NCBI RefSeq assembly: GCF_014696925.1
Contig: NZ_JACJQY010000011.1
Span: 1-64,000, forward strand
Source: Phormidium tenue FACHB-1050
GTDB lineage: Bacteria > Cyanobacteriota > Cyanobacteriia > Pseudanabaenales > Pseudanabaenaceae
Reading direction: 5' to 3'
Length of the DNA: 64,000 nt
In this document: positions 1 to 41,580 of the stretch, piece by piece
Layout of the letters: each line of letters begins with the position of its first letter
Numbering within the stretch: position 1 is the first letter of the stretch
Notes under the pieces: generated by a model
Told to the model about the DNA's origin: nothing
The model's database searches: none
Seen by the model: the letters and a program-made list of their open reading frames with translations, nothing else
Translations under genes and position numbers: made by a program

Positions 1-711
1 AATTAGTAAATCGCCATCCTCCAGACGCATCGCCGCAATATAAAGCCAATGTTGCCAAACTAGTCTGGGCTTGGACAATACTTTTGATTGACCAGCTTGG
101 AGGTCTTGGAAACAAACGTCAGCCCGTAGTTGTTTCTGCCCATCGTCAAGCAAGGTGTTTTTACGAATACGGATACGAAAACGGGTACATGGGTCACTAA
201 TCAAGTAATCAAACCATTCTTCCCCCACAAATTCACGGTCTGCGGTCAAAAAGTCGATTTTACGATCTCCAAATATTTCCAGAAAACGATTACACAATTC
301 ACAACGTTCACGGGTGTTTGAGTTACCTTTTTTATCCAGCATCATCCAGACCAACGGGAATGCGATACCGTGATGCACTACCCCCAATGTCAGCACATTA
401 AACACCGTCTTACCGAATCTCCAATCGGTGCGGTCGATACTGATTACCCATGGTTCGGGTATTTTCATTACTTTGACGACCATTAAAGCGATGCTTTCAT
501 AGTCCACTTCAAACTCCCTGAAAAATCTCTGTAACCGCTTATAGTGTGATGCGACTTTGGCTTCACCACTAAATCCTGTCGCTATTTCCGCTAGGTTTAC
601 TGTCTTTACTCGCATTAATGCGATCAAGAACATCGACACAAATAAGAGTCTTGCTCCATTCCATTGCAGATGTTCATGCAACTTTTCTCGAAATAGGTTA
701 ATCTCTTTCAT
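1..711 (-). CDS. IS4-type DDE transposase, C-terminal part cut by window edge
   Basis: The reverse strand is open from an ATG at 709-711 to base 1, giving 237 residues with no stop, so the 3' end lies outside the window. The translation starts MKEINLFREKLHEHL and carries ISIDRTDWRFGK, the usual context of the first catalytic Asp in IS4-family DDE transposases, and FLTADREFVGEEWF, the second Asp. The third catalytic residue (Glu) would lie beyond the edge. The enzyme would cut and join the ends of its own insertion sequence. A perfect inverted repeat lies just upstream of the start. Family assignment rests on these motifs; the IS name and terminal repeats were not identified. Confidence 0.85.
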   Translation of the reverse strand, partial: MKEINLFREKLHEHLQWNGARLLFVSMFLIALMRVKTVNLAEIATGFSGEAKVASHYKRLQRFFREFEVDYESIALMVVKVMKIPEPWVISIDRTDWRFGKTVFNVLTLGVVHHGIAFPLVWMMLDKKGNSNTRERCELCNRFLEIFGDRKIDFLTADREFVGEEWFDYLISDPCTRFRIRIRKNTLLDDGQKQLRADVCFQDLQAGQSKVLSKPRLVWQHWLYIAAMRLEDGDLLI

Positions 712-9108: not shown

Positions 9109-9157
9109 AGTTAATTTATCCTGCAATGCAATATGCAAGGGGCTGAAGCAACTTGTT

Positions 9158-9198
9158 AAATAAACAAAAGGCTCGCATTGCGAGCCTTTTGTTTATTT
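9158..9198. terminator. Terminator palindrome after the 48-residue gene
   Basis: Perfect 20-bp arms around one base, containing GGCTCGCA / TGCGAGCC and AAAATAAAC-type flanks giving a U tract on either strand. It overlaps the stop codon of the small gene at 9193-9339. Confidence 0.8.
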
Positions 9199-36837: not shown

Positions 36838-38955
36838 TTAAGCTGCAACAGCCACAGGACTGTCGAGTTTCTTCAATTGCTGCACTAGCAAGCTGAGGAA
36901 TAGCCCGACATCGGTGACAACGCCGACGGACTCAACAGAACCGCGATCTGAGAGTTTGGTCACCACCGCAGGATTGATGTCCACACAAACCATCTTCACA
37001 CCTGCGGGAGTCATGTTACCCACACCGATGGAATGCAGCATTGATGACAGCATCAAAATCATGTCAGCGTTGCGAATTTGTTCGCTGTACAGGCGTTGTG
37101 CTTCTAGCAAATCCATTACAGTGTCAGGCAAGGGACCATCATCACGGATGGAGCCAGCTAGTACAAAAGGAACCTCGTTCTTAACGCATTCGTACATCAC
37201 ACCAGTCTTCACAAAACCAGCTTCAACCGCTTTGTGGATGCTGCCATAGCGACGAACGGAGTTAATCACTTTCAGGTGATGGCGATGTCCGCCCTTGACG
37301 CTTACGCCACGTTTAAGATCGACACCGAGAGAAGTTCCCATTGAGGATTGTTCCATATCGTGAACCGCGATCGCATTACCACCGAGCATTGACTGTACAT
37401 AACCTTCACGAATTAAGTAAGCCAAGTGAGGAGCGCCGCCAGTATGCACGACTACGGGACCACAGGAGACAACTAACTTGCCACCGCGATCGCGAATTTG
37501 GCGCAGTTCCCATGCGATTTGCTCAACCACGAGTTCGACGCGACGTTCGCTAGATACACCCGCACCCATGAAGGAAAATTCTTCTTTCTTGGCGGTATCT
37601 CTAGCTTCAGGCTTACGCACAGTCCGCACGCCATCATAGCCAACTACTACGCGATCGCCTACAACTAGATCACGCAACAGCTTACAGGTAGCAGTTTTAC
37701 CATCAGGACTAATGGCGATCGCCGCATCCATGCGCTGATTAGTACAACGAATCCACTCACCATCCACACAGGCATCGGTAGGATAAATTGTAGATACATA
37801 GAAGTCATCGGGAGCAACGCCATCTTGCAAGACTGGCTCAAGATTTGCATCAGATGTGTCGCGATCCTGTAGGACTGCACCGATTTCAATCAGTTCACCC
37901 ATGATTGTTTCCATGAGGTCATGGGATGGGGCTGAAATACGGATTCTGGCTAAAGAAGTGCTTTGTCTTTGTTCACCAAGATTAAATTCCAAGACTTGAA
38001 AACTACCGCCATTATCGGTTACCAAATCAAGGGCGCGATTGATGATGCCAGAATCTAGCAAATGTCCTGTTAATTCGACAATTCTTGCTTCTACGCCGCC
38101 TTGCTCAATGGCTTGGTCACTGCTTTCTGCGGCAATAGGAACTTCAATGGTTCTCAAAGTTAGACATTTTGCTGCGCCACCCGCTTTCAAAAACTCAGTG
38201 AGAGGAGTTTCGATCACAGTAAAACCAGCGTTGGTAATGCGTTGTTTGAGGCGATCGCTGATTTTGTTCATTACTACATTGCGATCGACGTTGACCGCAT
38301 TACAAGCAAAATTCACAGCATCCGCTTCTTCGATCGCAATCCTCTTGTCCGCAGGAACGCGCATTTCAATCAAACGATTAGAATAAGAATCAAAGGCTGG
38401 TGGATAGTAAAGTAAATAGCCGCCTGTTAAAGGACAGAAGCAGGTATCGAGATGATAGAAGCGATTGTCAATTAAACGGAGGGAAAGGACTTCGACATCG
38501 AGCCATTTCGCTAAGTAAGGATGGGCATCTAGTTCTGAACGAAACCCATAGCCAGCCCATAGCCAACCACCACTGCGATCAAACAATGCATCACCTGCAC
38601 CTTCAAAGGGCAAATCCTTAGGCAGTTCAAAAACTGTAAAGCCCTTAGACTCAAACCATGCTTTGAAATAGGGTTCTTCGCCTTGACGCTCTTTGTGCAA
38701 AAAACGACTCAATACTGCTTTGTCACCTAATACTAGACCAGCGTTGGCGGTAAATACCATATCTGGCCAGCCCTTTTCGGGTGTCACTAGCTCGACATTA
38801 ACTAAACCCTTAAGGACTCCATACAGTTTTTGCCATTGCTCTACAGCGCGATCGCGGCTAGATTTGTGAACGTTGCCCTCCATCCAAGGATTGATCACAT
38901 AGTCTACGTCGTAGTGATCGGGGGCACACATCAGATAATTCAGTTGGGCAGTCAT
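36838..38955 (-). CDS. argZ: Arginine dihydrolase ArgZ/AgrE with C-terminal ornithine-processing domain
   Basis: 705 residues. The N-terminal 280 residues are an amidinotransferase fold (CAPDHYDVDYVINPWMEGN, PDMVFTANAGLVLGD, LPFEGAGDALFD, YHLDTCFCPLTGGYLLYYP; catalytic Cys in AGGAAKCLTLR). The rest is the LOR/SDH-type domain (TIGR00300) with SCGPVVVHTGGAPHLAYLIR and VPFVLAGSIRDDGPLPDT. In Synechocystis (ArgZ) and Anabaena (AgrE) this enzyme turns arginine into ornithine, ammonia and CO2; in AgrE the C-terminal part makes proline from ornithine. It drives the cyanobacterial ornithine-ammonia cycle and cyanophycin use. Single gene. Confidence 0.95.
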   Translation of the reverse strand: MTAQLNYLMCAPDHYDVDYVINPWMEGNVHKSSRDRAVEQWQKLYGVLKGLVNVELVTPEKGWPDMVFTANAGLVLGDKAVLSRFLHKERQGEEPYFKAWFESKGFTVFELPKDLPFEGAGDALFDRSGGWLWAGYGFRSELDAHPYLAKWLDVEVLSLRLIDNRFYHLDTCFCPLTGGYLLYYPPAFDSYSNRLIEMRVPADKRIAIEEADAVNFACNAVNVDRNVVMNKISDRLKQRITNAGFTVIETPLTEFLKAGGAAKCLTLRTIEVPIAAESSDQAIEQGGVEARIVELTGHLLDSGIINRALDLVTDNGGSFQVLEFNLGEQRQSTSLARIRISAPSHDLMETIMGELIEIGAVLQDRDTSDANLEPVLQDGVAPDDFYVSTIYPTDACVDGEWIRCTNQRMDAAIAISPDGKTATCKLLRDLVVGDRVVVGYDGVRTVRKPEARDTAKKEEFSFMGAGVSSERRVELVVEQIAWELRQIRDRGGKLVVSCGPVVVHTGGAPHLAYLIREGYVQSMLGGNAIAVHDMEQSSMGTSLGVDLKRGVSVKGGHRHHLKVINSVRRYGSIHKAVEAGFVKTGVMYECVKNEVPFVLAGSIRDDGPLPDTVMDLLEAQRLYSEQIRNADMILMLSSMLHSIGVGNMTPAGVKMVCVDINPAVVTKLSDRGSVESVGVVTDVGLFLSLLVQQLKKLDSPVAVAA

Positions 38956-39139: not shown

Positions 39140-39168
39140 TTGCAAATTATGGAGGAATAGTCTACATT
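39140..39168 (+). promoter_or_regulatory. Promoter of the candidate ncRNA
   Basis: TTGCAA (39140-39145) and TACATT (39163-39168) are exactly 17 bases apart. Transcription would start around 39172-39175, at the first base of a strong stem. Visual match only. Confidence 0.5.
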
Positions 39169-39171
39169 ACT

Positions 39172-39370
39172 ACTAGACCCATCCTATTCCCCCCCGTGTG
39201 GGTCTAGTATCCCCGAAATGGCAATTACTTCCGAAAGGGGTAAGCGCAAATTGGTAGACCTAAAGCTATCCGCTACACATACGGTATGGTGGCTACTAAT
39301 GCCGAAGGGATATTTTGTAATCCTACAACTAAATAAAACAAAAGGGTTCGCAATGCGAGCCCTTTTGTTT
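39172..39370 (+). ncRNA. Candidate structured non-coding RNA of about 200 nt
   Basis: Gene-free stretch 38956-39507. A promoter-like pair precedes, and a terminator hairpin (39336-39370) ends it. Stem 1 is ACTAGACCC / GGGTCTAGT (39172-39208) with a C-rich loop containing seven consecutive C. A multibranch domain then closes: ATCCC / GGGAT (39209-39213, 39307-39311), TGGCA / TGCC, an internal hairpin TTACTTCC-GAAA-GGGGTAA, and TTGGTAG / CTACTAA (39251-39257, 39293-39299). No start codon with ribosome site is present. I do not recognise it as tmRNA, 6S, SRP or RNase P RNA, nor a known riboswitch. It could be a regulatory sRNA. Confidence 0.5.
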
Positions 39371-39405
39371 AGTTAAAAAATCTCGCGTCGCGAGATTTTT
39401 TAACT
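39336..39405. terminator. Terminator hairpin followed by a second palindrome
   Basis: AAACAAAAGGGTTCGCA / TGCGAGCCCTTTTGTTT (39336-39370, one G-U) ends the ncRNA; AGTTAAAAAATCTCGCG and its complement (39371-39405) form a perfect second hairpin that can terminate moaA from the other side. Confidence 0.8.
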
Positions 39406-39407
39406 AA

Positions 39408-39507
39408 ACCAATTCACAAAAGTGTGGCAACGCTTTTGTGAATTGAAAACCAAACTCAGCAAGGGTTTTAAAAGTACAAAATGGCTACGCCATTTTGTAC
39501 TTTTGTA
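39408..39507. repeat. Family B element abutting the moaA stop codon
   Basis: ACCAATTCACAAAAGTGTGG start, second hairpin GTACAAAATGGCTACGCCAT region, end TTGTA directly before TTA, which is the moaA stop codon on the reverse strand (39508-39510). Confidence 0.75.
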
Positions 39508-40659: not shown

Positions 40660-41580
40660 ATGACCTTACAGTACGCCTATATACGCGGGACATTTGTACC
40701 CCTCGAAGATGCCACAATCAATATCCGCACCCACGCATTTCTATATGGTACGGCTGTCTTTGAAGGAATTAAGGCGTATTGGCTACCAGAAGAAAATCGG
40801 ATGGCGGCATTTCGCCTAGCAGAGCATTATCAACGTCTCATCCAAAGTTGCCGCATTATTGGCTTGCAACATCCCCTTGATGTCGAGACGATGGTTCATC
40901 TCACGACCGAGTTAATCCAACGCAATCAGTGTAACTCTGCTACATATATCCGCCCGATTATTTACAAGTCTGACCTTCGGATTGGACCAATTCTCAAAGT
41001 TCCTCATACCCATGATGATTTTTGTTTGTTCAGCGTGCCGATGGATGGATATCTCGATACTAGCAACGGTATCAAAGTCGGTGTTTCTTCATGGCGACGT
41101 TTAGATGACAATGCAATTCCTGCTCGTGCAAAAGTGAATGGCGCTTATGTAAATACTGCTCTTGCGAAGACCGATGGTTATGCCTCTGGTTTTGATGATG
41201 TTGTTGTATTAACGAATGAAGGGCATGTCGCGGAAGGAAGTGCGATGAATCTCTTTTTAGTAAGAGATGGAAAACTAATCACTAGTTCGATTACTGACAA
41301 CATTCTCGAAGGAATTACTCGCAGTTCGGTAATAGAGTTAGCTGCTAAAGAATTAGGATTAGAAACTGTATCGCGCACAATCGATCGCACAGAGCTATAC
41401 ATTGCCGATGAAGCTTTCTTTGTTGGTACGGCTACTGAACTCGCTCCAATTACCAGCTTTGATCATCGTCCCGTCGGTGATGGCACAATTGGTGAGATCA
41501 CTAAGAAGCTTCGCGACTTGTACAGTAAAGCTGTTCAAGGACTTTTACCTGACTATCATCACTGGCTAACCAAGGTCTAA
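40660..41580 (+). CDS. ilvE: Branched-chain amino acid aminotransferase
   Basis: 306 residues, fold type IV PLP enzyme. It makes leucine, isoleucine and valine from their keto acids with glutamate. Motifs: RGTFVPLEDATINIRTHAFL, GTAVFEGIKAYW, the Lys region ARAKVNGAYVNTALAKTDGY, VAEGSAMNLFLVRDGKL, and ITRSSVIELA. The C-terminal ADEAFFVGTATELAPITSFD with GDGTIGEITKKL is the IlvE signature rather than D-amino acid or aminodeoxychorismate enzymes. Full length and monocistronic. Divergent from moaA. Confidence 0.96.
   Translation: MTLQYAYIRGTFVPLEDATINIRTHAFLYGTAVFEGIKAYWLPEENRMAAFRLAEHYQRLIQSCRIIGLQHPLDVETMVHLTTELIQRNQCNSATYIRPIIYKSDLRIGPILKVPHTHDDFCLFSVPMDGYLDTSNGIKVGVSSWRRLDDNAIPARAKVNGAYVNTALAKTDGYASGFDDVVVLTNEGHVAEGSAMNLFLVRDGKLITSSITDNILEGITRSSVIELAAKELGLETVSRTIDRTELYIADEAFFVGTATELAPITSFDHRPVGDGTIGEITKKLRDLYSKAVQGLLPDYHHWLTKV

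Follow-up and report, generated by a model that had tools for sequence, protein, structure and literature searches.

Between argZ and moaA of a Pseudanabaena-type cyanobacterium, the window (the whole 64,000-nt stretch of DNA that was analysed) contains an RNA unit at about 39140-39374 on the plus strand that very probably specifies a stand-alone c-di-GMP-binding RNA. As judged from sequence comparison, the gene would encode an sRNA of about 150-200 nt that comprises a 5′ hairpin with a run of C in its loop, a c-di-GMP-I aptamer and an end at a U-tract or terminator (Table 1). The complete arrangement is seen again in 87 distinct RNAs of the Pseudanabaenaceae and the Thermosynechococcus/Acaryochloris family. 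Taken as a whole, these observations are best explained by a stand-alone c-di-GMP-sensing sRNA whose C-loop would act in trans, a reading that we place slightly above even probability.

Table 1. Features of the RNA locus and its flanking genes, in coordinates of the window
Feature	Coordinates	Strand	Details
argZ	36838-38955	minus	NF052231, 1349.8 bits
Promoter-like element	39140-39168	plus	TTGCAA 39140-39145, 17-base spacer, TACATT 39163-39168
5′ hairpin	39175-39205	plus	Stem AGACCCAT/GTGGGTCT (halves 39175-39182 and 39198-39205), loop CCTATTCCCCCCC
C7 run in hairpin loop, presumed contact site	39189-39195	plus	C4-C8 in 87/87 RNAs
Closing helix P0	39208-39312	plus	TATCCC 39208-39213 with GGGATA 39307-39312; extends the aptamer
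c-di-GMP-I riboswitch aptamer, RF01051	39210-39306	plus	Full length (1-87), 36.9 bits, gathering score 35
Ligand-contact positions	39220; 39248; 39302	plus	G20; A47; C92
GAAA tetraloop	39233-39236	plus	
Tetraloop receptor	39259-39263; 39285-39289	plus	CCTAA/TATGG
U-rich tract	39311-39324	plus	Directly 3′ of closing helix P0
Intrinsic terminator hairpin	about 39335-39374	plus	AACAAAAGGGTTCGC..GCGAGCCCTTTTGTT; from the fold
moaA	39508-40548	minus	TIGR02666, 341.1 bits

Aptamer identity and predicted ligand

The central part of the RNA, which the sequence-only reading had described as the multibranch domain of a candidate novel structured RNA, is indeed a structured domain but not a novel one: in an Rfam scan of 571 bases with permissive settings, it matches the c-di-GMP-I riboswitch (GEMM-I, RF01051) above the gathering score, with E = 1.2e-5. 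The likeness covers the secondary structure, the GAAA tetraloop, its CCUAA/UAUG receptor and the ligand contacts G20, A47 and C92, the numbering of which we take to carry over from Vc2 through the Rfam consensus alignment. Among the family members, G20 and A47 are each present in 87/87, position 92 is C in 79/87 and U in 8/87, and the P2 loop is GAAA in 83/87, the remaining 4 being gapped in the alignment; on the receptor side, CCUAA is found in 54/87 and GUAUG in 61/87. RF01051 is also matched at 35.1-46.5 bits by 15 RNAs from 14 of the 20 homologous loci tested, which were found by DNA search or with a custom model, independently of Rfam, and one further homologous RNA matches the GGC variant below that variant's cut-off. 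The identity of the aptamer is thus well supported.

The c-AMP-GMP (cGAMP) variants of GEMM-I are marked by A at position 20; the G that occupies this position throughout the family argues for c-di-GMP over c-AMP-GMP as the predicted ligand. The host genome encodes 28 GGDEF domains, so that c-di-GMP is almost certainly made.

Neither the Rfam scan of the whole window at the gathering threshold nor the genome-wide RF01051 search of the host genome picked up the aptamer, in each case because of speed filters. Since standard filters can miss an above-threshold aptamer on a long sequence, gene-less GEMM-I RNAs may be under-annotated. Rfam matches to miRNAs and other sRNAs at about 39330-39450 were rejected as palindrome-derived and far under the gathering scores.

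Covariation and non-coding status

The RNA folds with a minimum free energy of -72 kcal/mol, and the z-score is -5.2 if the terminator is included; with the terminator excluded, the z-score is a modest -1.9, so that folding energy alone is no proof of an RNA and the verdict has to rest on comparison with relatives. An alignment of 23 distinct sequences has 97.9% of its cells paired, and ten pairs have changed on both sides. Conserved covariation in relatives, on which the sequence-only reading had made its structured RNA depend, is found: there are 30 compensatory cells, compared with 7.0 +/- 2.1 in shuffles (0/500), and sliding the partners by 1-3 columns reduces them to 1-5. In this set the covariation is located in the 5′ stem, P2 and P3. 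The closing helix P0 is invariant within the 24-sequence set from which the covariance model was built; once the wider set is considered, it shows covariation, for example an A-T/G-C exchange, with its five inner pairs paired in 85-87/87. Selection at the RNA level is observed in the covariation of all four helices.

An ATG frame of 52 codons (39218-39376) overlaps the RNA and begins within the aptamer. It was rejected as a coding sequence: the stretch folds and covaries as an RNA, and the frame is broken by indels in related genera. A free-standing transcription unit devoid of coding potential, as originally proposed for this stretch, is what the comparison of sequences points to.

The 5′ hairpin and its C-run

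The strong first stem that exposes seven C, already noticed in the sequence-only reading, is real, and it is the C-run that is conserved: a hairpin with a C4-C8 loop is found in all 87 homologues on about 50 different stems, compared with 9% of shuffled leaders that have a C-loop hairpin of such kind. Compensatory changes occur at three pairs of the stem in 6 of the 23 distinct sequences; among relatives, AGACCC/GGGTCT gives way to AGGGCT/AGCCCT and the loop ATCCTATTCCCCCCCGTG remains unchanged. In the window genome, the stem can be extended to 39171/39209.

The motif of the loop, A/U-U-C5-7-G, does not vary and is accessible, the mean predicted unpaired probability of the C-run being 0.92. 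That G-runs mask the C-loop within the molecule was rejected as a conserved feature, given that 49/87 RNAs lack GGGG elsewhere in their sequence. With the C-run predicted to be unpaired and a potential GGGG partner absent from so many members, the run is not maintained for internal pairing.

Predicted ends of the RNA

The -35/-10 pair with 17-base spacing that had been pointed out upstream of the hairpin is present; its sequence is unremarkable, and its position is conserved in homologues. The loose pattern TTGNNN-16..18-TANNNT has 159 matches in the window, and the TTGCAA/TACATT pair was not listed by the promoter scan of the window. In the alignment of congeners, TTGCAAAT and the -10-like hexamer recur throughout the genus, and TANNNT occupies one fixed position just 5′ of the hairpin in 33/78 homologues, forming a clear peak relative to the neighbouring positions. 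Because this peak lies directly upstream of it, the C-loop hairpin is the likely 5′ end of the RNA, and from the conserved position we infer that the RNA would have a promoter of its own.

At the 3′ end, at least 5 T in the 8 nt after P0 are found in 81% of homologues versus 6% of control windows, and it is possible that the aptamer stem itself forms the 3′ end at the U-tract. The strong terminator of the sequence-only reading is a real feature as well, and aligned congeners have a hairpin at its place, with sequence changes. Classical terminators at most 90 nt downstream are enriched in the family (19/76 copies versus 6/149 controls); three-quarters of the copies are without one within this distance.

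The gap between the RNA and moaA is filled by more palindromes at 39373-39507, namely GTTAAAAAATCTCGCG/CGCGAGATTTTTTAAC, TTCACAAAAG..CTTTTGTGAA and AGTACAAAATGGC..GCCATTTTGTACT. A palindrome like that of the terminator is found again at 9153-9198, and the terminator may therefore derive from a dispersed hairpin repeat. An origin of the RNA itself from a REP-like repeat was rejected: the RNA is single-copy in the host genome, and the terminator palindrome is the only part of it that recurs there. That the locus is a decayed riboswitch remnant or a functionless hairpin repeat is hardly credible; palindromic repeats occur frequently in this genome and make up the stretch just downstream, but invariant ligand contacts, compensatory changes and promoter spacing conserved across two families all speak against this explanation.

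Distribution and copy number

BLAST detected the RNA in 24/26 genomes of the same genus, counting that of the window, and also in three further genera of this family. The covariance model, for which 24 sequences of the BLAST set were used, gave full-length matches that include the 5′ hairpin in 30/38 genomes of the window's own family and in 28/29 genomes of a second family, which consists of Thermosynechococcus, Acaryochloris, Petrachloros and related genomes. Among 386 evenly drawn genomes of the phylum, the custom model, whose E-values are rough, yielded no further family under strict filters that could hide divergent members elsewhere in the phylum. Under the same kind of filters, RF01051 itself was found above its cut-off within the class only in a member of the present RNA family. 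In two genera of the window's own family, GGDEF proteins are present but no copy of the RNA was detected, which speaks against the proposed role in c-di-GMP signalling.

Within the genus of the window there is one copy per genome, and the same holds for the Thermosynechococcus genomes. Elsewhere multiple copies, at most 12 per genome, are dispersed. The Acaryochloris/Thermosynechococcus family shows copy-number expansion, with 12 copies in genome G447 and 7 in G439; tandem pairs occur in G442 and G447 (L120:1501-1645 and 2022-2169; L135:1546-1696 and 1865-2015).

Genomic context

The lack of a cis gene is well supported. In the window, the next gene 3′ of the RNA is moaA, in convergent orientation, and the nearest downstream gene on the plus strand, a branched-chain transaminase at 40660, lies past it. 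In a set of 73 copies, with genes called by a simple ORF method, 32 are followed by an ORF on their own strand and 41 by one on the other strand (binomial p = 0.35), and 40 of the next-ORF families turn up a single time; because copies that are orthologous within one genus do not count as independent, these and the following context counts are inflated. The context varies between genera and even among the copies of one genome. A same-strand ORF is present within 120 nt in 7/73 copies, whereas 11/12 control c-di-GMP-I riboswitches have a same-strand ORF that starts within 110 nt (Fisher p = 1.6e-8). The controls were RF01051 matches in members of the same phylum, called non-photosynthetic by inference from their position outside the class, and were examined with the identical ORF caller; the stretch read near these 12 riboswitches contains no C-run hairpin.

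Neither in the window nor, in general, in the family does the RNA occupy the place of a cis riboswitch, the 5′ leader of a same-strand gene. An ordinary cis riboswitch for a downstream gene, or read-through antisense control of moaA, is thus very improbable, despite the fact that this aptamer class normally acts in cis and that a terminator follows. The Thermosynechococcus copies do have a gene in common on their own strand, about 150 nt 3′ of the RNA, but two copies from this genus (L111 and L116) have opposite-strand neighbours; antisense control is further opposed by the absence of moaA from beside the RNA in other genera. The sequence-only reading had remarked on a positional link to argZ, which finds no support, as unrelated genes flank the RNA elsewhere; because the neighbours change between genomes, control of either argZ or moaA by the RNA was rejected. 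Conserved, sometimes present in many copies and with no adjacent gene to control, the RNA is probably a free small RNA rather than an ordinary riboswitch.

Proposed function and alternative roles

Under the proposed mechanism, the RNA would be transcribed from its own promoter, as the conserved promoter position and the terminators suggest, and would bind c-di-GMP, as predicted from the RF01051 match and the conservation of the contact nucleotides. The ligand would then close the aptamer stem P0 beside the U-tract and could thereby set 3′-end formation, stability or folding, and hence the amount of free C-loop available to G-rich sites of target RNAs, or to a protein. The RNA would in this way be a trans-acting output of c-di-GMP signalling. 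Action in trans through the C-loop seems to us a little likelier than its absence. Pairing of the C-loop with Shine-Dalgarno sites, as suggested in the sequence-only reading, is putative; in the host genome, the complement of the loop of the window RNA has 358+387 matches compared with 361+337 for the reversed control, that is, no excess, and the best match besides the RNA itself lies inside an ORF. The broader proposal of a lineage-wide cyanobacterial family of c-di-GMP-gated trans-acting sRNAs, each a gene-free aptamer joined to a C-loop effector hairpin and dispersed in up to 12 copies, we rate as evenly balanced.

The closest precedent is merRNA of Bdellovibrio bacteriovorus, a 445-nt stand-alone RNA that contains a c-di-GMP riboswitch, lacks a downstream ORF, is massively expressed, has been reported from the Bdellovibrio lineage only and was proposed by its authors to serve as a reservoir (PMC3627812). 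The layout of a stand-alone non-coding RNA with a c-di-GMP aptamer is in the present case predicted from sequence; unlike merRNA, the present RNA would be about 150-200 nt long and is cyanobacterial, distributed over two families, sometimes multi-copy and equipped with a C-loop. By analogy, the main rival to trans action, though a doubtful one, is a c-di-GMP reservoir or sponge, in which an abundant RNA would sequester c-di-GMP and the C-loop hairpin would merely stabilise the 5′ end. Multi-copy genomes would increase the dosage of such a sponge, but the single copy per genome in the genus of the window limits it unless expression is very high, and a hairpin that served stability alone would have no need of a loop with C4-C8, yet this loop is kept in every member while the stem turns over.

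Alternatively, the C-run could be a protein-binding site, with c-di-GMP switching the capture or release of the protein. This is unlikely, although the constant and accessible loop motif and the lack of enrichment of complementary genome sites would both suit it; there is no candidate protein, and sequence does not separate protein binding from RNA pairing.

c-di-GMP governs aggregation and motility in cyanobacteria. If the preferred reading of a trans-acting sRNA is true, this conserved aptamer, which has no gene attached and an unchanging effector loop, would give c-di-GMP a new type of output, and a lineage-wide family would amount to second-messenger output in the form of trans-acting RNA. 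The merRNA precedent, so far a lone one, would also gain strength, and gene-less riboswitch matches would be read differently. Thermosynechococcus, which is genetically tractable and has a single copy, is suited to test such aptamers as true trans-acting sRNAs.

Comparison with known systems

Compared with the c-di-GMP-I riboswitch class, the present RNA lacks a cis gene and has, in addition, the 5′ C-loop hairpin and a closing helix that runs into the U-tract. Among RNAs derived from riboswitches, SreA of Listeria, a by-product of a cis-acting SAM riboswitch, is reportedly proposed to act in trans, and the B12 riboswitch RNA Rli55 of the same genus is said to sequester a protein. The present RNA, for which trans action is likewise proposed, differs in its predicted ligand, c-di-GMP, and in having no cis gene. 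C-rich-loop sRNAs, such as the UCCC-motif sRNAs of Staphylococcus, have no metabolite aptamer. What the present RNA has in common with them is a single-stranded C-run that is a candidate for seeding on G-rich or Shine-Dalgarno sites, its C-loop pairing being putative.

The raiA-motif RNA or ModT resembles the present RNA in being structured, conserved, stand-alone and connected with c-di-GMP physiology; it affects c-di-GMP levels through dccA and is not known to bind c-di-GMP (PMC11706538); the structures of the two RNAs differ. No description of a c-di-GMP riboswitch in oxygenic cyanobacteria was found in the open-licence literature searched, and an earlier report elsewhere is possible; the papers on cyanobacterial c-di-GMP that were searched mention riboswitches only generally, as tools, or for c-di-AMP.

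Variant copies and related loci

The eight members with U92 retain G20 (L105:4784-4936, L040:1501-1652, L090, L100, L101, L128, L143 and L164) and are mostly Acaryochloris copies; they may have an altered ligand specificity or be non-binding paralogues. Among L156, L161, L162 and L165, and also L104 and L081, some copies have an insertion of roughly 40 nt in P2 and the g6 copies have an enlarged P3; the core is kept.

Outside the class, c-di-GMP-I riboswitches of other members of the phylum (L166-L173, L175-L177 and L179) lie 5-109 nt 5′ of same-strand ORFs. In several of these genomes, the riboswitch-linked ORFs code for putative exported proteins that resemble one another and have a DYDSLIV-like motif; these could possibly form an uncharacterised c-di-GMP regulon.
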